Shown: piece by piece, positions 78-27,730 of the stretch | Position numbering within the stretch: position 1 is the first letter of the stretch | Layout of the letters: every line of letters starts with the position of its first letter | Assembly (NCBI GenBank): GCA_002763265.1 | Contig: PEZQ01000004.1 | Coordinates: forward strand, 1 to 34,704 | Origin: an archaeon CG10_big_fil_rev_8_21_14_0_10_43_11 | Lineage (GTDB): Archaea > Nanobdellota > Nanobdellia > PEZQ01 | Direction of reading: 5' to 3' | DNA length: 34,704 nt | Notes under the pieces: generated by a model | Told to the model about the DNA's origin: nothing | What the model saw: the letters and a program-made list of their open reading frames with translations, nothing else | Database searches by the model: none | Program-made: the position numbers and the translations under genes

Positions 78-262
78 GTATAACATCGCGATTAAGAGAA
101 GTTCAATTTCCTCGTAAATTTCGACCTCGTGAGGATTTTCCCCCGAACCGCAGTTCAAAGCTGGAAAATCCGAACAGAGCTGGAGAAATTTACAGAGCTG
201 AAGAAAAAATTTGGGTGGAGAATTCAGCAGGACTTCGGAACTCTTTAATCGCGGTTATATTC
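78..262 (+). repeat. large imperfect inverted-repeat element, copy 1 (attC-like or structured RNA)
   Basis: The left arm at 79-98 (TATAACATCGCGATTAAGAG) pairs with the right arm at 241-260, with a one-base bulge and two extra bases on the left side. Inside are nested pairs such as GTAAATTTC with GAAATTTAC and GGATTTTCC with GGAAAATCC. The outer box on the right is GTTATAT and on the left GTATAAC, close to the RYYYAAC/GTTRRRY boxes of integron attC sites. At about 185 bp it is longer than most attC sites. A structured RNA or a MITE-like element is the alternative. Confidence 0.55.
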
Positions 263-414
263 GTCACAAAGTGACCAAGGGATAGGTGCAACGATTTTTG
301 CGAAGCAAAAAATTAGAGTTTTTTGATTACTGATAAATTTCGACCATAGGGGGTGTATATGTCTGAAGGACGACGCCCCTCTCTCTTTTCCGTTTTAAGT
401 AATCCAAAAATTGA

Positions 415-560
415 ATATAACATCGCGATTAAGAGAAGTTGATTTTTCAGAGTTGGAGTGAGCCACTCCTGGCGAATGTAATGAGCCGAGAGCGAACGAC
501 CTCGAAAAATCAATTTGGGAAAATTCCTGCAAGGGATTTTCCTCTTAATCGCTGTTAAAT
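415..560 (+). repeat. large imperfect inverted-repeat element, copy 2 (attC-like or structured RNA)
   Basis: This is the clearest copy. The outer stem pairs 425-435 (GCGATTAAGAG) with 542-552 perfectly. After two unpaired left-side bases it continues as TAACA (418-422) with TGTTA (553-557). A first inner stem pairs TTGATTTTTC (439-448) with GAAAAATCAA (504-513). A second pairs about 518-527 with 533-542 through one T-G wobble and a five-base loop. The loop carries a GGAGTG/CACTCC hairpin. The right box GTTAAAT (554-560) matches GTTRRRY. Asymmetric unpaired bases on one arm are also a feature of attC sites. Confidence 0.6.
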
Positions 561-669
561 ACCCCGAGCGTAGCGAGAGTGCAACGTGGTCGATTGAGCA
601 AAGCGAAGGAGAAGTCAGTCTTGGGTGCTGTCACCGCACCGAAAGCTGTATAAACTTTATAGTGGTTAC

Positions 670-1119
670 ATGAATTTCATGAGTGAATTACCAAAGATTT
701 CGGATGGAAGGCTTGAAGAACTTATGGGAGAAATCAAGCCAGTTGTTAGATATTCTAGAAGAGTAACTTCTCGTAAAGATAAACTCGTGCAAGATGATGA
801 GGGCGACTTATATTTTATTCAAGATGTTGATCCAAGAGGCGTAGCATTTACTTGGGCTCCTAAACCTGCCCGAATAGCTGACGAAGTAAATCCCAATCCA
901 TATAAATCAATTGAAACAATTCATAGTTATGGAGCACCTGTATTCTTTAAACCATCAATTGCAGAAGTGTTAGCACAAATTCCAGAAGATGATATTGGAA
1001 GGTGCGTTGCATTTGAAACAAATCCTTTGGGATTTACTGAGGGTTCAAGCTATCATCTTGCACAAACAAGATTATACGAGAAGTTACCTCAAAGATTTCT
1101 TCAAGGCACCCAAGACTGA
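670..1119 (+). CDS. hypothetical protein, possible cassette cargo
   Basis: A 149-residue protein that I do not recognise. The frame is open from a GTG at 625. A TATA-like stretch at about 648-660 and the leaderless habit of this genome point to ATG 670 or ATG 679 as the start. The product looks soluble, with an acidic N-terminal half and a middle segment rich in Pro and aromatic residues; there is no signal peptide or membrane segment and no Cys pair. Codon choice is more AT-rich than the genes downstream and lacks their ACGCG-type words. It sits between inverted-repeat copy 2 and a half-copy that begins four bases after its stop codon, which is how an integron cassette would be laid out. That reading is inference. 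Confidence 0.6.
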   Translation: MNFMSELPKISDGRLEELMGEIKPVVRYSRRVTSRKDKLVQDDEGDLYFIQDVDPRGVAFTWAPKPARIADEVNPNPYKSIETIHSYGAPVFFKPSIAEVLAQIPEDDIGRCVAFETNPLGFTEGSSYHLAQTRLYEKLPQRFLQGTQD

Positions 1120-1123
1120 TTGT

Positions 1124-1144
1124 ATTTAACAACTATTAAGCGAG
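1124..1144 (+). repeat. possible left half of an inverted-repeat element
   Basis: The segment ATTTAAC followed by AACTATTAAGCGAG resembles the left arm of the elements at 79-98 and 415-435 (box ending in AAC, then ATTAAG). The box fits RYYYAAC exactly. No matching right arm is visible before the next gene, so this is either a truncated copy or chance similarity in AT-rich DNA. Confidence 0.3.
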
Positions 1145-19370: not shown

Positions 19371-19894
19371 AAAAAGGTGTTAGTGCTTTGCCTTATACGT
19401 ATTTCAAAAGTTAGACTTTTGAGGCAAACGTTAGTTTCTAATCCTAACTCGTTCATTTCTAACGTTAGGATTATGAGAAGTTCACTTTTCCAGCTTTGTT
19501 CCACTCCCTGCGGTCGCTCCACGAGGGAAAAGTGAATTTTGAGAAATTGCGAGGCGAGCAATTTCTCGGTTAATGCCTGTTAAACGCGGGTGAGGAGCGA
19601 TAGCGACGAAAGCGCAGCGTCCCCAAGCGACCGTAGGGAGCGTAGAGTTTTCTTACTGCCTAAACTAAGAAAATCATAGATTTTCTGATCCCAAAACTCC
19701 TCGATTTTTTTGGAATCCAGTTAATGCCGTAGTTTTTGCCGACTATATCAATAACTGCGAAGCAGACTAAATGTCCGAAGGACTGGGGGGAGTCCAGATT
19801 TTTTGTTTCTTTCCATAAAAATCAAAGATTTTTAGGGTGTCAGAAATGTTGCATTTCTAAAAAAAGAGGATAGAATGGGCGTCTTTAAAGTATT
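19371..19894. other. non-coding hairpin-rich segment between HAD gene and hsdR
   Basis: No gene is seen in about 520 bases. Perfect hairpins include CAAAAGT/ACTTTTG near 19405-19421, AATCCTAAC/GTTAGGATT at 19440-19472, AGAAAATC/GATTTTCT at 19668-19686, TAAAAATC/GATTTTTA at 19816-19834 and AGAAATG/CATTTCT at 19842-19858. A third copy of the large inverted-repeat element lies at 19457-19585. GTCCGAAGGAC near 19775 echoes GTCTGAAGGAC at 361-371. Some hairpins are well placed to end hsdR transcription on the minus strand. Confidence 0.6.
19457..19585 (+). repeat. large imperfect inverted-repeat element, copy 3 (attC-like or structured RNA)
   Basis: The layout matches copy 2 with different stem sequences. 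The left box is TTCTAAC (19457-19463) and the right box GTTAAAC (19579-19585, a GTTRRRY match preceded by GCCT). The first inner stem is TTCACTTTTCC (19481-19491) with GGAAAAGTGAA (19526-19536). The second is GAGAAATTGC (19541-19550) with GCAATTTCTC (19558-19567). The loop shares a CCACTCC-TG-CG motif with copy 2. Stems kept while sequences change point to selection on structure. An overlapping 9-bp inverted repeat (19440-19472) could compete with the outer stem. Confidence 0.55.
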
Positions 19895-22800
19895 TTATTT
19901 TGAGATGTCAAAGAATCTTTCAAAGAATCTAGTGAATTTTTCAATAATAGTTTCACGTTTTTTAGTACGTTCTCCTGTCTTAGAAAATCTAGATACTGGT
20001 GGTAAAACTTTGGTTATTGCTGTGCCTGTTGCCGGTATGTTTCCATCTCTAAATGCATTTTTTATAAATCTGTATGTTTCATCATGATTAAGATTTTCAT
20101 CTTCAATTATTTTTTCTAATTCTTCAATTTTCTTTTTCTCTACGAATTTCTGCCAATCTTCATCTACCACCGATTTCATATTAAGAGATTCAATAAATTG
20201 ATGGATAAGATCTTTTTTATTACGAAGTTCTACACTTGAATCTATTGCTTTATTAATGTCTAATAGAATTTCTTTATCTTTTGTGTGTTCTTCATGATAT
20301 TTTTTAATTAATTCTAAGATATAATCAATGTTTATTTCTATTTGTTTGATGAGTTCCATTTCAAAAACAATATCATCATTAATATTCTCTTTTTCTGTAT
20401 CTTTACTTTTTCTAAACTCATTATATAGGTCTATGTATAAGCTATGGTAATCTTGAACATCTCTTTCTGTTAGTATCTCATTGCTCTCAAATTCATCAAA
20501 AGTTGTAAGAATATTACGGACTCTTAAAATGCCTCCGTAAAGTTTAATAAAGTCTTTTTGATTTTGTTCTCCAAGTATTCTTTCACCTATAGGAAATTTG
20601 TCTTGTAATTCTTCGACTAAACTTTCATATCCTCTTATTGTTTTTCCGTCGTTCTCATATCCATTATAATATTCTTTGTAAGTTTTTAGTAAAACAATTC
20701 CACTTGCTTCTTTATCTCCAAAAAGTGAAATAGATTCATTTGTTGCTTTTTCTAAGTTTCTAAAGCAAATAATGTTTCCAAAGGTTTTGATGCTGTTTAA
20801 AATACGGTTAGTACGAGAATATGCTTGGAGTAAGCCATGTAATCTTAAATTTTTATCTACCCAAAGGGTATTTAGTGTAGTTGCATCAAACCCAGTTAAA
20901 AACATATTAACTACTATCAAAAGATCTATTTCTCGGTTTTTTACACGCTCGCTAACATCTTTATAATAATTTTGGAACTTATCAGAAGAGGTATTATAAG
21001 ACGTTTTAAACATCTTGTTATAATCTTTAATAGCATTTTCTAAAAACTCTCTTGAACTTGCATCTAATCCACTTGTATCTTCTGAATTTTCATCAATTAC
21101 GCCATCAATTTCTTCCTCATTTATGCCGAAACTATATATTGCTGCAATTTTTAATCTTTGTATTTCGGGTAATAATTTTTGTTGCTTTTCAAATTCAGCA
21201 TAATACTTTTTTGCCATTTCTATTGATTGAACAGCGAAAATAGAATTAAATCCAGATAAACGAATCTTTTCTTTTATTACTGCAACCTTTTTCCTATCTT
21301 TTGCAGTTACAAGTTCTTGAATATTTTTTGTAACATTATGAATATAAGATTTATCATTTCTTTTGGTTTTTTGATTGAAGTGTTCAATGATGTAATTTAC
21401 AACATCACTTAATCTTTTAGGAGCAGACAAAACAGCTTCTCTATCTATATCTTTGACCTTTTTATCTTCAATATTTTCTGTTTCTTTAAATGTAGAAATA
21501 TAATCTACCTTGAAGGGTAAAACATTCTTATCATTAATCGCATCTACGATTGTATAAGTATGTAATTTATCGCCAAAAGCTTGCTGTGTGGTTTTTAAGT
21601 CCACTCTTCCGCTTGAAGATGAATTAACTGCAAAGATAGGAGTTCCTGTAAATCCAAAAAGATGATATTTGTTAAATGCTTTAATGATTGCTGTATGCAT
21701 ATCTCCAAATTGTGAACGATGACATTCATCAAAAATTAATACTATATGACCATTAAAAATTTTATGTCCTCTATTTTTTCCTATAAATCGGTCAAGTTTT
21801 TGAATTGTGGTAATTATAATTCTTGCATTAGGGTCTTCGAGTTGTTTTTTTAGAATTGAGGTGCTAGTGTTACTATTTGCTGCACCTTTTTCAAATTTAT
21901 CATACTCTTTCATTGTTTGATAGTCTAAATCTTTTCTATCAACAACAAATAAAACTTTGTCAATGAAAGGTAGTTTGCTTGTTAATTGTGCTGTTTTGAA
22001 ACTTGTTAGTGTCTTTCCTGAACCAGTGGTATGCCAAATATATCCTCCTGCTTTTACAGTTCCAAAATATTTGTAATTTGTGCTTACTTCAATTTTATTT
22101 AAGATTTTTTCAGTTGCAACAATTTGGTAAGGTCGCATAGCTAAAAGTTGTTTATCTGCTGTAAATACACAGTATTTAGTAAGAATATTTAGAATAGTGT
22201 GTTTTGCAAAAAATGTTTTTGTGAAATCAACTAAATCAGTTATTGGACGATTTGTAGAATCTGCCCACCAGCTAGTAAATTCAAAACTATTGCTTGATCT
22301 TTTGCCTTTCTTTTTTATGCCTCGATTTGCTTCTTTAATATGTTCTGAACGAGTTGTATTACTATAATATTTTGTATGTGTTCCGTTGGAAATAACAAAC
22401 AATTGAATATATTCATATAAACCGCTTGATGCCCAAAAACTTTCTCTTTGATAACGATTTATTTGATTAAAGGCTTCTTGTATTGCTACTCCTCTTTTTT
22501 TAAGTTCAATATGCACTAAAGGTAAGCCATTTACTAAAACAGTTACATCATAACGATTTTTATATTTTCCATCTTCTGTTTCATATTGATTAATTACTTG
22601 TAAAGAATTGCTGTGAATATTATCTTTTTTTAGTAGGTAAATGTTTTTACTTGTTCCATTATCGCACTTCAAAATTTTAATATAATCTTCTTGTATGGTT
22701 GTTGTTTTTTCAGCAATACTTTGGTTTGGATTTGCTAATTCTTTTTTGAAAAAATAATCCCATTCTTTATCACTAAACTTGTAATTGTTTAATTTTTCTA

Positions 22801-23011
22801 ATTGCTTTCTTAGGTTTAAAATTAAATCTTCTTCTTTAGTTATTTTAATATATTCGTAAGCTTGCGTTTGTAATTGTTTGATGAAAGCTTTTTCTAAGTC
22901 TGCCTCGCTTTGATAAGTTTTTGCTCTTTTTCCATAAGGCGGAGAATACTCTGCAACAACTGTGCTTTCAGTATTTTGCACTACAAGATTGTAATTGTGA
23001 TTTTTTGACAT
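19895..23011 (-). CDS. hsdR: type I restriction enzyme, R subunit
   Basis: A 1038-residue motor and nuclease subunit that translocates DNA and cuts it at a distance from unmethylated sites. The PD-(D/E)XK nuclease shows D155, E169 and K171 (IELKK). The superfamily 2 helicase has Walker A HTTGSGKT (327-334) and the DEAD-like box DECH (428-431). The GFTGTP motif and the FLTGFDA motif follow, with a helical C-terminal part that contacts the methylase. The length is normal and the gene looks intact. The ATG lies 3 nt after the stop of the COG2865 gene. Codon use is strongly AT-biased, unlike radA or metG, which fits transfer as part of the island. Confidence 0.96.
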   Translation of the reverse strand: MSKNHNYNLVVQNTESTVVAEYSPPYGKRAKTYQSEADLEKAFIKQLQTQAYEYIKITKEEDLILNLRKQLEKLNNYKFSDKEWDYFFKKELANPNQSIAEKTTTIQEDYIKILKCDNGTSKNIYLLKKDNIHSNSLQVINQYETEDGKYKNRYDVTVLVNGLPLVHIELKKRGVAIQEAFNQINRYQRESFWASSGLYEYIQLFVISNGTHTKYYSNTTRSEHIKEANRGIKKKGKRSSNSFEFTSWWADSTNRPITDLVDFTKTFFAKHTILNILTKYCVFTADKQLLAMRPYQIVATEKILNKIEVSTNYKYFGTVKAGGYIWHTTGSGKTLTSFKTAQLTSKLPFIDKVLFVVDRKDLDYQTMKEYDKFEKGAANSNTSTSILKKQLEDPNARIIITTIQKLDRFIGKNRGHKIFNGHIVLIFDECHRSQFGDMHTAIIKAFNKYHLFGFTGTPIFAVNSSSSGRVDLKTTQQAFGDKLHTYTIVDAINDKNVLPFKVDYISTFKETENIEDKKVKDIDREAVLSAPKRLSDVVNYIIEHFNQKTKRNDKSYIHNVTKNIQELVTAKDRKKVAVIKEKIRLSGFNSIFAVQSIEMAKKYYAEFEKQQKLLPEIQRLKIAAIYSFGINEEEIDGVIDENSEDTSGLDASSREFLENAIKDYNKMFKTSYNTSSDKFQNYYKDVSERVKNREIDLLIVVNMFLTGFDATTLNTLWVDKNLRLHGLLQAYSRTNRILNSIKTFGNIICFRNLEKATNESISLFGDKEASGIVLLKTYKEYYNGYENDGKTIRGYESLVEELQDKFPIGERILGEQNQKDFIKLYGGILRVRNILTTFDEFESNEILTERDVQDYHSLYIDLYNEFRKSKDTEKENINDDIVFEMELIKQIEINIDYILELIKKYHEEHTKDKEILLDINKAIDSSVELRNKKDLIHQFIESLNMKSVVDEDWQKFVEKKKIEELEKIIEDENLNHDETYRFIKNAFRDGNIPATGTAITKVLPPVSRFSKTGERTKKRETIIEKFTRFFERFFDISK

Positions 23012-23014
23012 TTT

Positions 23015-24434
23015 TTATTTACCTTTTTTTAAGTATTCTAAACCTTTTTTGGTTGTTATATATTTTTGCTTTTTACTTGTCGGTTTATCTGGAATAGTTA
23101 ATTCTAATAAATTCTCTTTTAATAAAGGAGTTAATATAGATTTTCTAAAATGTTCCCTATCTTTTATATTTATGTGACTCTGTATTTCTTCTCTTGTTTT
23201 TTTTAATTTACAGAATTTCAATATTTTATCTTGCGGGGTATCTTGCGGGGTATCCTGCTCTTTTAAGGGAATTATAATTTTAAAGATATCATCTTCAATT
23301 AATTCAGGAGTTGCGTCAGAGTATATTTTAACATATTTTGTTAAGTTTCTTATTCCTGAACCTAATTCTTCTGCAAACCCAATTTCTTTAAAGACTCTTG
23401 CAATTATTGGATTTTTAGGGTATGGTGAAAAATTATTAGGATTAATTTTGCCATGACCATGAGGTTTATTTGCATTCTCTGTTTTTATTTGATTTTTTTC
23501 TATTATGAATTTTGCAGGGAAATGATTTGTAAATTCTCTATGCATTAAAATATTTGATGCAATTTCTCTTAAAATTTTATTTCTGACACTTAATCTTTGA
23601 GTTCCTTCAAGATAAAACGGGTCAGGTAAATGTTTTTCTCCAAAAGCAATGATTCTTTCATAACTATCAATTAAATTTATTCGAACATCATCTCTATCAT
23701 CATACCTATCTAAATTAATTTTTCTTAGGATTAAATCGGTTTTGTGATGTGGCAAAACAGATAATATTGTTTCTTCTTTTCCAAATAATAAAATACCTGC
23801 TAAGGTTATTCCTTCCTCATTAGTTTGATAGTCTTTAGAATATAATTTAGCACTTTTTAATAATTCTAAATTACTCATTTGTTTCCAAGGATGAGAATTA
23901 TTTTGATTTACTGCTAATTTTCTTGCTTTGTTTATTAAGTTTTCATCTAAGTCTTTTAATTTACAATAAGGATAAACTCGGTTTTCTGAGTATGAAGTTT
24001 GTTTTTTTAGATATAGTTGTGTAACGAGTGTTTGATTTTCAGTTATGTCAATATCTCCATCTTCGTTTCTGTCAAATATTTTATTTTTACATTTTTGAAC
24101 TTGAGAACCAATGGGAACATATATGTGTAATATTTGTTTTTTATTTATTTCTACTTGATTTATTAAAAGATAAACAGGAGGAGACATTTTTTCTGAATTG
24201 TTTATTGTTGTTACAAAGTCTTTTTTTTATTTGCTCTATTTTATCTTTTTTTATTCCTTGAATTTCTTTATTATCTTTAACGCCAAGTAAAATATCTCCG
24301 CCATTCCGGTTTAGAAATGCACAAACAGTTTCATAAATACTGTTAGGAAGTTCATCTTTGCATTCTTTAAACTCAATATCAATTCCTTCTCCTTTTTCAA
24401 GTATCTTTCTTGTTTTTAGGTTTGCCATTTTCAT
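23015..24434 (-). pseudogene. COG2865/AlbA_2 (Schlafen-like) regulator with frameshift at an A8 tract
   Basis: Two frames together encode one protein of about 472 residues. The N-terminal part (24434 to about 24228) is an AlbA_2 domain (EFKEC, then FLNRNGGDILLGV). The C-terminal part (read to 23015) has the COG2865 ATPase-like region with LAGILLFG, NILMHREF and GSGIRNL, then a winged-helix end. The frame breaks at eight A on the minus strand (T8 at 24221-24228); seven A would restore IKKDF...EKMSPPV. This may be a sequencing error, phase variation, programmed slippage or a true pseudogene. Without slippage, the downstream part could start at ATG 24187. Such genes often sit in type I loci; their role is unclear. 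The start overlaps the hsdS stop by 4 nt. Confidence 0.8.
24221..24228 (-). other. homopolymer A8 tract at the frameshift site
   Basis: Eight A on the coding (minus) strand sit exactly where the two halves of the COG2865 reading frame fail to join. Loss of one A, or slippage by one base in the ribosome or polymerase, would give a continuous protein. Confidence 0.75.
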
Positions 24435-25690
24435 TCTTCCTTAATTTTTTCTTTAAAAGTTAAAAGCTTTTCTCGATAGTATTCGTACTGTTTTCTTCTA
24501 GCTTTAAGTTCAGCTGGAAGACCTATTGAAATATCATTAACAAGAGCATCAAACTTATCAAGGATTTTAACTATTCGGGTTTGTTCTTTTAAGGGAGGGA
24601 GGGGGATTTTGATTTTTGACAATTTTGGTCCACTTATCAGTGCCCTAGTAGTAAACGTACTATTTCTAATTATTTCTTTTCTTGCTGAAAAAGAAGTTAA
24701 ATAATAAGAACAAAATTTAGGATTTAATAAGTTTGTCTTTGGTCTAGCTCTTAGAACAAAACCACTAAATACACATCCTTCAACATCATCCAAAAGAGCA
24801 CTTACCATTCCAATATCTTCCTTAGTCTCTGAAGTCCTTGTAAAAAAGATATCATTTTTTTGAGCACCATATAATAATTTTTCTTTAGATGTAACCTCTA
24901 CTTTACCATTTAAATCTATTAAACTTAATGATCGTTTTTTAAAAACATCAGTAAAATTTACAATTGGTGTTCCCTTCCCAAAAAATTCTTTTCCTTTGTT
25001 TAATCCATTTTTAAAATCAAATAATTCTTTAATCATCTTAAACTCAACCTCATCGCCAAAAGTCAATAATTCTTCTCTATAATATCCATACTGTTTCTTT
25101 CTTGCTTCCAGCTCCGCTTCCAGCTCCGCTTCCAGCTCTGTAAAGTTATCAAGGATTTTAACTATTTCTTTTTGGATGGGAAGAGGGGGGAGAGGGATTT
25201 TTATTTTTAATATCTCGGTCATGTTAGGATGTTTTACTCCTGCTCCCCTAAAACAGCTTTCTATTAATTCATTTTTAATTAAAAGAAAATAATAACAATA
25301 TTTTAAATTTAAAATTTCATCATTAATTGAACTCGCTAAAATATTTCCACTATCTACAAATTTACCTTTAAAATATTTAATACTTGCAGAACCGCCAGAT
25401 GGAATCGAGATAACTTCCCCTTCATTTAGATTTTCTCCAGCTAATTCTTCAGTAGTCCAACCATCAAATTTCCCTGTTGCTAATAGTTTGATATTTCCAT
25501 TTTCTGCTTCTAAATCCTTTAAATCTTTTGAAGAAATGTGGTTAAATGACAAAATCTTTTTTTGCTTTTTATTATCAACTGCATTAAACCTTTTATCCCA
25601 TGCTGTAACTTCCCATAACTCCTTAAACTCAACTCCCTCAGGACAAAGTTCATTAATTAATTTGTCAATTTTATTCATGTTGTAAGCCAT
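24431..25690 (-). CDS. hsdS: type I restriction-modification specificity subunit
   Basis: A 419-residue subunit that selects the bipartite target sequence. It has two target-recognition domains (about residues 15-165 and 215-360). Each is followed by a conserved helical spacer: IKIPLPPLPIQKEIVKIL then ELEA repeats at about 163-200, and IKIPLPPLKEQTRIVKIL near 365-385. The central spacer contains a threefold ELEA repeat coded by a 12-bp direct repeat (25104-25139). The ATG at 25690 lies 3 nt after hsdM; M5 at 25678 is an alternative start. The two recognition domains differ, so the target should be asymmetric and bipartite. It forms an M2S methylase with HsdM and M2R2S with HsdR. Confidence 0.95.
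   Translation of the reverse strand: MAYNMNKIDKLINELCPEGVEFKELWEVTAWDKRFNAVDNKKQKKILSFNHISSKDLKDLEAENGNIKLLATGKFDGWTTEELAGENLNEGEVISIPSGGSASIKYFKGKFVDSGNILASSINDEILNLKYCYYFLLIKNELIESCFRGAGVKHPNMTEILKIKIPLPPLPIQKEIVKILDNFTELEAELEAELEARKKQYGYYREELLTFGDEVEFKMIKELFDFKNGLNKGKEFFGKGTPIVNFTDVFKKRSLSLIDLNGKVEVTSKEKLLYGAQKNDIFFTRTSETKEDIGMVSALLDDVEGCVFSGFVLRARPKTNLLNPKFCSYYLTSFSARKEIIRNSTFTTRALISGPKLSKIKIPLPPLKEQTRIVKILDKFDALVNDISIGLPAELKARRKQYEYYREKLLTFKEKIKEE
25104..25139 (-). repeat. three 12-bp direct repeats in the hsdS central spacer
   Basis: The unit GCTTCCAGCTCC (plus strand) occurs at 25104-25115 and 25116-25127, and with one change at 25128-25139. It encodes (A)ELE three times in the helix that separates the two recognition domains. 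In EcoR124 and EcoDXXI, a gain or loss of a 12-bp spacer repeat changes the length of the non-specific gap in the target; the same switch is possible here. Confidence 0.85.
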
Positions 25691-25693
25691 TTC

Positions 25694-27256
25694 TTAATTT
25701 CCGCTTTCAATTTCATCAACAATTTTATCAATTGCATTTCTAAGTTCGTTTTGTCTTTTAACAATTTCAGAAATTTCTTTATTTAACTCGATAATATTGA
25801 CAACTTCTCTCGTATCTTCTTGTTCTACATAACTTGAAACTGCAATATTATAATCATTTTCTGCAATCGTTTCATTATCTACTAATTTAGCAAAATGCTC
25901 AATATCTTTACGACCTTTGAAAGCATCTAAAATGTTTTTAATATTTGTATCACTTAATTTATTTTTGTTTCCTCCACGAACAAATTCAGCAGAAGCATCA
26001 ATAAATAGTGTCTTATTATCACTCTTACTTTTTTTAAGCACAATTATGCAGGTTGCAATAGTTGTTCCAAAAAACAAATCTGGTGGCAATTGAATAACAC
26101 AATCAACATAATTATTATCGATTAAATATTTTCTTATTTTTTGCTCTGCTCCACCACGATAAAGAACGCCCGGAAACTCAACAATTGCAGCAGTTCCACT
26201 TGTAGAAAGCCAAGACAACATATGCATAGTAAAGGCTAAATCTGCCTTACTTTTGGGTGCTAAAACACCTGCAGGAGAAAAACGAGGGTCATTAATCAAT
26301 AAAGGATTAGCATCACCTTCCCATCTTATTGAATAAGGGGGATTAGAAACAATCGCGTCAAAAGGCTCATCATCCCAATGTTTTGGATCTGTAAGAGTAT
26401 TGCCATGAGCAATATCAAAATGATTATAATTAATATCATGTAAAAACATATTTATACGGCAAAGATTGTAAGTTGTTAAATTAATTTCTTGCCCATAAAA
26501 ACCTTGGTGAACATTGTCTTTACCAAGAACTTTAGCAAATTTAAGAAGCAAAGAACCAGAGCCACAAGCAGGGTCATATACTTTATTAACATTCTTTTTG
26601 CCAACAATAGTAATTTCAGCTAAAAGTTCACTAACTTCTTGAGGAGTATAAAACTCTCCTCCAGACTTACCAGCACTACTCGCATACATAGTCATTAAAA
26701 ACTCGTAAGCATCACCAAAAGCATCGATAGTATTATCTGAATAATTTCCAAGACGAAGTTCACTTATAGATTCTAAAAGTTTAACAAGTTGTTTATTTCT
26801 TTGCTCAACGGTATTTCCTAATTTATTTGAATTCACATCCAAATCATCAAACAATCCTTTCAAATCATCTTCACTTTCTGTTCCTTTAGCAGAACTTTCA
26901 ATATTTTTGAAAACAACAGATAAAGTTTCATTGAGATTAGAATCGTTACGAGCATTTTTTGTAACATTCTTAAAAAGTTCACTTGGTAAAACATAAAATC
27001 CTTTTTCTTTAACAGTATCAGCTCGACCAAATTCTGCTTCTTTATCAGATAATTTAGAATAATCAAAATCTTTTTTTCCAGCTCGTCTTTCATCATCATT
27101 AATATAATTAGTTAAATTTTCGCTAATGAAACGATAAAAAAGCATGCCTAAAACATACTGTTTAAAATCCCAACCATCAACACTACCTCTTAAATTATTT
27201 GCAATTTGCCAGATAGTTCGATGCAGTTCTGCTCGTTCTTGTTCTTTTGATGCCAT
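25694..27256 (-). CDS. hsdM: type I restriction-modification methyltransferase subunit
   Basis: A 520-residue N6-adenine methyltransferase that modifies both half-sites with HsdS and S-adenosylmethionine. Residues 1-150 are the HsdM N-terminal helical domain. The SAM-binding motif I is DPACGSG (228-234), and the catalytic motif is NPPY (305-308). The C-terminal tail is helical, as in the family. The ATG is 2 nt after the stop of an RHH microgene and the stop is 3 nt before hsdS, so the genes form one operon. The gene is complete, with AT-rich codon use. Confidence 0.96.
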   Translation of the reverse strand: MASKEQERAELHRTIWQIANNLRGSVDGWDFKQYVLGMLFYRFISENLTNYINDDERRAGKKDFDYSKLSDKEAEFGRADTVKEKGFYVLPSELFKNVTKNARNDSNLNETLSVVFKNIESSAKGTESEDDLKGLFDDLDVNSNKLGNTVEQRNKQLVKLLESISELRLGNYSDNTIDAFGDAYEFLMTMYASSAGKSGGEFYTPQEVSELLAEITIVGKKNVNKVYDPACGSGSLLLKFAKVLGKDNVHQGFYGQEINLTTYNLCRINMFLHDINYNHFDIAHGNTLTDPKHWDDEPFDAIVSNPPYSIRWEGDANPLLINDPRFSPAGVLAPKSKADLAFTMHMLSWLSTSGTAAIVEFPGVLYRGGAEQKIRKYLIDNNYVDCVIQLPPDLFFGTTIATCIIVLKKSKSDNKTLFIDASAEFVRGGNKNKLSDTNIKNILDAFKGRKDIEHFAKLVDNETIAENDYNIAVSSYVEQEDTREVVNIIELNKEISEIVKRQNELRNAIDKIVDEIESGN

Positions 27257-27258
27257 AG

Positions 27259-27405
27259 TTATACCTTATTTTTGTTCCGTTTTAACTCTTCTTCTGCAAA
27301 AATTTCAAATTGCCTAGATATTATAAGACCTTTTTTTTTGCATAATTCTTTGTAAGCATTATACAATTTTTCATCTACTTTTAGAGTAATATTTTTTCTT
27401 CCCAT
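27259..27405 (-). CDS. 48-residue ribbon-helix-helix protein leading the hsd operon
   Basis: A short gene encoding MGRKNITLKVDEKLYNAYKE and a further helix (GLIISRQFEIFAEEEL). The beta strand NITLKV followed by two helices is the pattern of CopG/Arc-type ribbon-helix-helix DNA-binding proteins, which act as dimers. It ends 2 nt before the hsdM start and is the first gene of the operon. A control role over hsdM-hsdS-hsdR is the simplest reading. A TATA-like CTTTTAAAG (27423-27431) lies about 22 nt upstream. A second one (27410-27418) lies too close to the ATG to serve it and may be the operator. Confidence 0.8.
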   Translation of the reverse strand: MGRKNITLKVDEKLYNAYKELCKKKGLIISRQFEIFAEEELKRNKNKV

Positions 27406-27422
27406 AGTTATATAAATATCCC

Positions 27423-27431
27423 TTTTAAAGA
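27423..27431 (-). promoter_or_regulatory. probable TATA box of the restriction-modification operon
   Basis: CTTTTAAAG lies 18-26 nt before the ATG of the ribbon-helix-helix gene. A second AT-rich box, TATTTATATAAC on the minus strand, sits between it and the ATG and would suit repressor binding. Confidence 0.45.
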
Positions 27432-27730
27432 CGCGCCTAATAAAATTTCTTTAACATGTTTTTCAGATTCTGGGAAGTTCTCCATTTGAGAAAAACCTGC
27501 CATCAGTATAGTTATTATTATACGAAACCTTTACCGCAAAAAGTATATATTTGGAACATTATGCGAAATTAAACACAGTCTTTCAATTAAATTAGAAAAT
27601 GAATTGAAAGTTAAAATACTCACCTTTGAGGCAGAATGAACCCGTATAGGGCAACGTTACTTAGTGCAGACTAATAAGGCAAAGCCAGGTGTTACACAAC
27701 ACTTATAAAGCATACCTGAGGTCAGGTCAG
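27432..27730. other. intergenic region between the hsd operon and the C/D RNA
   Basis: About 300 bases with no gene seen. A perfect 9-bp inverted repeat pairs CTTTCAATT (27580-27588) with AATTGAAAG (27602-27610). Nearer the guide RNA are a GTGTT/AACAC pair (27689-27702) and a TATA box. Confidence 0.5.
27702..27710 (+). promoter_or_regulatory. TATA box of the C/D box sRNA
   Basis: CTTATAAAG is 24-32 nt upstream of the C box, placing transcription start within a few bases of the RNA's expected 5' end. Confidence 0.55.

Follow-up and report, generated by a model that had tools for sequence, protein, structure and literature searches.

Integrons combine an integrase (IntI), its attachment site attI and an array of cassettes, most of which carry one gene and all of which terminate in a folded attC site; the integrase gene is directed away from the cassettes and has attI at its 5′ side. 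IntI proteins carry an additional domain that is held to be necessary for their activity and by which software calls integrases. Xer-type sites also bound genes in the pdif modules of Acinetobacter plasmids, often toxin–antitoxin pairs. Archaeal integrons, including some in Nanoarchaeota, were described by Ghaly et al. 2022, who reported 539 attCs and only six IntIs; most of the arrays had no integrase (PMC9668308). In the same study, archaeal attCs were assayed for insertion with IntI1. An IntI call in that study needs a match to the additional-domain profile (PMC9668308), and recombinases of the kind described below would therefore have gone uncounted there.

The window analysed here, a 34,704-nucleotide stretch of an archaeal genome, contains three folded inverted-repeat elements. 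On the evidence of sequence, we consider it very likely that these serve as attC-like recombination sites in an integron-like system of DPANN archaea that is run by an adjoining Xer-type tyrosine recombinase. The system acts like an integron but by the IntI definition is not one: it fails one defining test because its recombinase lacks the IntI additional domain and its site has two hairpins. The array-side recombinase without this domain, its attI-like hairpin, the covarying two-hairpin site and the class-wide spread are new. In the literature on DPANN, Woesearchaeota and XerA integrons we found no description of these features, and only PMC9668308 was directly relevant; the present sites may overlap with the Nanoarchaeota attCs reported there.

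A widespread family of folded sites

A first-pass annotation, made by reading the sequence alone, had described three folded copies in the window. All three are present (sites A–C in Table 1) and fold as single-stranded DNA beyond dinucleotide shuffles (z = −3.8, −5.9 and −2.6 for sites A, B and C, respectively). A home-made inverted-repeat scan returned an excess of chance matches and was replaced by a covariance model (R1) built from ten copies of the window genome and its relatives. A de novo model of this kind had been proposed in the annotation, and it recovered many more copies. The family comprises at least 143 distinct sites across 40 loci in the array regions retrieved. Of 378 genomes sampled from the archaeal class (Woesearchaeota, Pacearchaeota and kin), 113 carry sites. 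In the window genome itself (1.0 Mb), R1 finds six sites clearly and a seventh weakly, the half copy on C10. Site A is matched with a low score (18 bits) because of its long nested hairpin. No copies of the left-arm pattern were found in viral contigs.

Table 1 Features of the window and further sites in the same genome. Coordinates refer to the window unless a contig of the window genome (C2, C6, C10) is named.
Feature	Position	Strand	Basis or detail
attC-like site A, whose first hairpin is long and nested	78..260	-	outer boxes GTATAAC / GTTATAT, L arms GCGATTAAGAG/CTCTTTAATCGC
attC-like site B	415..560	-	covariance model, 84.7 bits
attC-like site C, 3′ end of restriction-modification cassette	19457..19585	-	covariance model, 56.6 bits
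Cassette without obvious gene, ending in site A	78..414	-	sequence between sites A and B
Orphan-ORF cassette, reaching from the GTT (1130-1128) to site B	415..1130	-	cassette-start consensus GTTANNNYCAAT
Half-copy: cassette start / attachment half-site (CTTAATAGTTGTTAAATACAA)	1120..1143	-	like relatives' attI ends ..TTAATAGTTGTTAGTTGCAAT
Orphan ORF, 164 aa, inside cassette	625..1119	+	no Pfam or PADLOC match
8-kb cassette that begins at GTTAAAG (27455), holds five restriction-island genes plus a small ORF and has site C as its 3′ end	19457..27455	-	
HsdR, type I restriction subunit	19895..23011	-	
HATPase_c_4 / Fic-like_C protein	23015..24187	-	
SLFN_AlbA_2 domain protein	24141..24434	-	
HsdS, type I specificity subunit	24431..25690	-	
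HsdM, type I methyltransferase	25694..27256	-	
Small ORF, 48 aa, at cassette start	27259..27405	-	read from sequence
Site on C6	33-155		covariance model
Site on C6	752-851		covariance model
Site on C6	2569-2653		covariance model
Site on C2	62215-62343		covariance model
Weak half copy on C10	87701-87773		covariance model

On the plus strand of the window, the consensus starts with a box nnnTAAC, followed by 2–4 unpaired nucleotides, a stem GCGATTAAGAG and hairpin 1 (AAGTT..AATTT); a GG linker then leads to hairpin 2, a stem CTCTTAATCGC, a T and a box GTTAnnn. Sites are approximately 95 nt long, with two terminal hairpins and a one-sided bulge of 2–3 nt. As in attC sites, R″ pairs with R′ and L″ with L′, so that an imperfect palindrome folds as a single strand. 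The consensus does not show the other attC traits, namely an unpaired central spacer, extrahelical bases and one variable terminal structure.

The annotation had further proposed that pairing is kept while the bases change, and this was borne out at scale. In an alignment of 150 matches, which is fitted to the structure, both sides change in 33 of 38 base pairs, with a covariation score of 0.468 compared with 0.153 after shuffling and 0.04–0.10 with slid partners. Covariation is already seen in 22 of the 38 pairs in alignment A2, which is not structure-fitted and consists of ten copies from the window genome and three relatives, aligned by sequence with hairpin loops clipped. The canonical bottom strand, corresponding to the plus-strand reading of the window, forms the more stable fold in 135 of 143 sites. 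In this reading, G.T pairs outnumber A.C mismatches by 111:54, and one base pair is G.T in 132 of the 150 matches. Bacterial IntI acts on the folded bottom strand (PMC8946536), and we infer that the archaeal recombinase does likewise.

Two local features of the sites were also seen. In hairpin 1 of site C (19482–19536), the interior is the reverse complement of a motif, CCTCGTG..GAACAGAGCTGG, that occurs in the direct sense in 20 other sites; it looks as if one hairpin had been inverted in situ. Many sites also have CCCGAGCG..GAGTGCAACGTGG in common some 20–40 nt past the R″ side (for example, at 561–590 in the window), which could be a terminator or belong to the site that is recognised.

Predicted crossover point and orientation of the sites

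Comparing similar sites with each other in the plus-strand reading, we found that 19% of 301 alignments extend more than 10 nt past the left box, whereas about 50% of 414 alignments run on beyond the right box. Because homology between sites breaks at the left box, this is the predicted crossover box R′; it reads GTTAnnn on the other strand (GTTATAC, GTTATAT and GTTAGAA in the window sites), and the consensus GTTANNNYCAAT that follows is the putative start of the next cassette. Across the family, R′ begins with GTT in 128 of 143 sites. The first-pass annotation had taken the right boxes GTTAAAT and GTTAAAC as the attC end, an assignment that the breakpoints overturn. Its wider comparison with attC, to which the arrays, the folding and the breakpoints lend support, holds only when the sites are read on the other strand. 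An initial orientation of our own, with the recombinase downstream, was reversed by the same breakpoint analysis.

The opposite-strand reading has the topology of an integron: a recombinase directed away from the array, an attI-like hairpin ending in GTT, and cassettes in which each gene is followed by its folded site. In many loci, the attI-like region between the recombinase and the first cassette consists of an inverted repeat and then GTT, and the hairpin is statistically significant in 14 of 24 loci. For one group of related recombinases, the attI-like region is conserved up to ..TTATGTT and unrelated beyond; the predicted cut point of the attI-like site is identical to that of the folded sites. 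The half-copy that had been noticed near an orphan ORF in the window is real and corresponds to a cassette start (GTTAAATACAAT on the minus strand).

Array architecture and cassette content

None of the 40 loci, with 143 sites between them, contains sites on both strands. The sites form tandem arrays in which neighbours are usually 0.2–3 kb apart with mostly one gene per interval, and the ends of these genes typically lie 50–120 bp from the flanking sites. The arrays have the layout by which integrons are recognised, with at least two sites less than 4 kb apart in a single orientation and short ORFs interleaved. A structured RNA, which the annotation had offered as the alternative to attC, or a transcription terminator would also account for a stable covarying fold with G.U pairs between genes. 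We regard this as extremely unlikely, since the architecture and the breakpoints contradict it: the sites of a locus occupy one strand though the genes point both ways, homology stops at the outermost GTT box, and a recombinase adjoins the arrays. Moreover, a search against Rfam at the gathering threshold found two tRNAs only and no match for the folded sites.

Under the preferred reading as recombination sites, the intervals are gene cassettes. The genes of single-gene cassettes are directed away from the recombinase by 42:21. Pfam assigns unrelated functions to genes of the arrays (hydrolase, nucleotidyltransferase, tRNA editing, MFS, acyltransferase, GATase, NUDIX, HD and Tad4-like anti-Thoeris), and among 112 array ORFs there are just 3 homologous pairs between different loci. 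The cassettes of the window genome encode DUF202, aspartate carbamoyltransferase, two ParE-type toxin–antitoxin pairs and an HNH endonuclease, in addition to the 8-kb cassette of the window, which holds a type I restriction–modification system with every gene in the canonical direction. No recombinase adjoins the window sites, so these cassettes would lie outside the main array, at places that are secondary insertion sites or else were left over from older arrays.

Individual cassettes include a match to Tad4, an inhibitor of type I Thoeris, so that an archaeal cassette here carries an anti-defence gene (L144 6964–7746), as well as the aspartate carbamoyltransferase gene of the window genome (L011 942–1853). 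In another locus, a 313-bp direct duplication (L105 9040–9352 and 9340–9648; 96%) takes in a site beside the recombinase.

A Xer-type recombinase at the end of the arrays

Of the loci retrieved, 24 encode a Xer-like tyrosine recombinase at full length (259–309 aa) past the last array site, mostly at a distance of 200–1500 bp; in L107 and L113, one further site lies beyond it. Its strand relative to the sites is the same in 24/24. The loci were chosen partly for having a recombinase near sites, whereas orientation played no role in the choice, which leaves the constant orientation as the one feature unaffected by it. For 13 recombinases of the same class that stand alone, no site lies within about 1.5 kb. 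Phylogenetically, one starred branch joins 24 array-side recombinases and that of the window genome, apart from the stand-alone XerA-like group, and the tree requires 3 label changes versus 11.1 when shuffled. Two array-side recombinases (L109 and L130, both of family f36) are placed in another clade, which is possibly another class of the system. The array recombinases of family f36 (L109, L130 and L108) have a motif, TTGACCAGTG.GGG.AGTGG, in common before the gene.

The catalytic residues are retained (HxLRHSFATHL, LLGH and Y). An IntI-type recombinase had been suggested as the enzyme to look for; a tyrosine recombinase does sit at the arrays, but it is Xer-like and lacks the additional domain. 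Aligned with IntI4 (2a3v), the region near patch III spans 61 residues in IntI4 versus 16 in the archaeal protein, which is thus approximately 45 aa shorter, and the IntI-specific domain is absent from the sequence alignment. Array-side recombinases score 175–221 bits with the integron-integrase model TIGR02249, and none of the seven scanned reaches its cut-off of 265. Among proteins of solved structure, XerA proteins (5hxy and 4a8e) are the best matches, and the archaeal XerA model NF040815 gives 213–250 bits against a cut-off of 220, with some proteins below it. That model is named 'site-specific tyrosine recombinase/integron integrase', and therefore public annotation may already give ambiguous labels to some array recombinases.

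The only tyrosine recombinase found in the window genome is a partial gene truncated by a contig end (C11:125–523), whose product is 87% identical to the protein beside the array of G009. It carries a 17-aa insert, SPKKSKIFWAQKNKFFS (L015 230–280, contig C11), which sits in the additional-domain region, is palindrome-rich at the DNA level and is not the IntI domain. With many further sites, a recombinase at the arrays and covariation in hand, none of the outcomes that the first-pass annotation had named as speaking against its proposal (no further copies, no integrase, no covariation) came true.

In the mechanism that we propose, the Xer-type recombinase beside the array (in the window genome, the putative product of the partial C11 gene) would bind the folded strand of a site and recombine it at the GTT of the outer box with another site or with the attI-like hairpin in front of its own gene. 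Cassettes would in this way be excised, inserted and shuffled. The array-side protein is thus the presumed acting enzyme, and the folded single strand its presumed substrate.

Probable cassette exchange between genomes

A pair of genomes from one genus (G043 and G213) shows synteny of the recombinase with four genes that flank it away from the array; the flank genes are 71–79% identical, and the two genomes have zero cassette genes in common. Across different families, stretches of cassette region are shared: one of 951 bp is 88.6% identical between the window genome and another family, and one of 955 bp is 78% identical. For an empty-site comparison of the window island, the HAD gene was unsuitable because the nearest relative, G001 (another genus), lacks it, and RadA and a pilin gene served instead. 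The RadA–pilin spacing is 10.3 kb in the window versus 2.7 kb in G001; the island was therefore either inserted in the lineage of the window or lost in the other.

Palindromic transposable repeats (REP/MITE-like or of the IS200/IS605 type) inserting between genes would also have hairpin ends and several copies per genome. They are nevertheless a very unlikely source of the sites: genomes share cassette stretches rather than bare repeats, and the arrays have a fixed orientation, one gene per interval and a tyrosine recombinase. That different families have cassettes in common would also fit ordinary integron cassette arrays that have no integrase (CALIN), moved in trans by a true IntI of other organisms, with the Xer-like gene incidental, and most archaeal integrons reported are CALINs (PMC9668308). 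Against this, the Xer-like gene occupies one particular end of the array, with constant orientation, in every one of the 24 loci, its proteins mostly form their own clade with their own attI-like site, and 0/378 class genomes contain an IntI over the curated cut-off, in a search that lacked a positive control giving signal. We consider this reading, with a true IntI in trans and the Xer-like gene as a bystander, unlikely.

Relation to known systems

The system that we favour, with the Xer-type protein as its recombinase, shares with integrons a recombinase directed away from mostly single-gene cassettes with an attI-like site at its 5′ side, inverted R and L boxes with AAC/GTT cores, a predicted crossover at GTT, a better-folding bottom strand and varied cassette functions. 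It differs from them in the missing additional domain, in an R′ box that is exactly GTTRRRY in only 35/143 sites, in the two terminal hairpins with a one-sided bulge of 2–3 nt in place of a symmetric unpaired central spacer, in an attI-like site that is a hairpin, and in the reversal of about a third of single cassette genes. The array recombinase is closest in sequence to XerA (5hxy, 4a8e; NF040815). Unlike XerA and XerC–XerD, which have one short dif site, its presumed targets are long folded sites in arrays, and most array-side proteins are on a clade of their own. Compared with pdif modules, the sites are folded, attC-like and approximately 95 nt long, have one orientation and are accompanied by a recombinase of their own where the array ends.

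On balance, it seems probable that DPANN archaea have their own class of integron, with a Xer-like recombinase without the additional domain, Y-shaped sites and a hairpin attI, and that cassette recombination at folded sites either predates the domain or arose a second time. If an enzyme without the additional domain drives folded-site exchange, the rules for recognition of single-stranded sites need rethinking, a simpler enzyme than any known would suffice for gene capture, and some of the archaeal arrays reported without an integrase may have an owner. Archaea with very small genomes would then also have a route of gene capture that is open to testing, whole restriction systems included.

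Contig ends and sites outside the class

In the window genome, C11 starts inside the recombinase gene, C6 starts with three sites, and both the window contig (C4) and C10 have sites at contig ends. Because these ends fall in sites or in the recombinase, we infer that the assembly was probably interrupted by the arrays. Further sites lie in contigs that carry the labels ANME/Methanosarcinales, Methanomicrobiales, Lokiarchaeia, Nanohalarchaeota, Parcubacteria, Thioploca and Deferribacterales (loci L162, L166, L175, L197, L202, L204, L208, L209 and L218). Some of these contigs are short and may be mis-binned; those of Loki (246 kb) and Nanohalarchaeota (176 kb) could represent real transfers.
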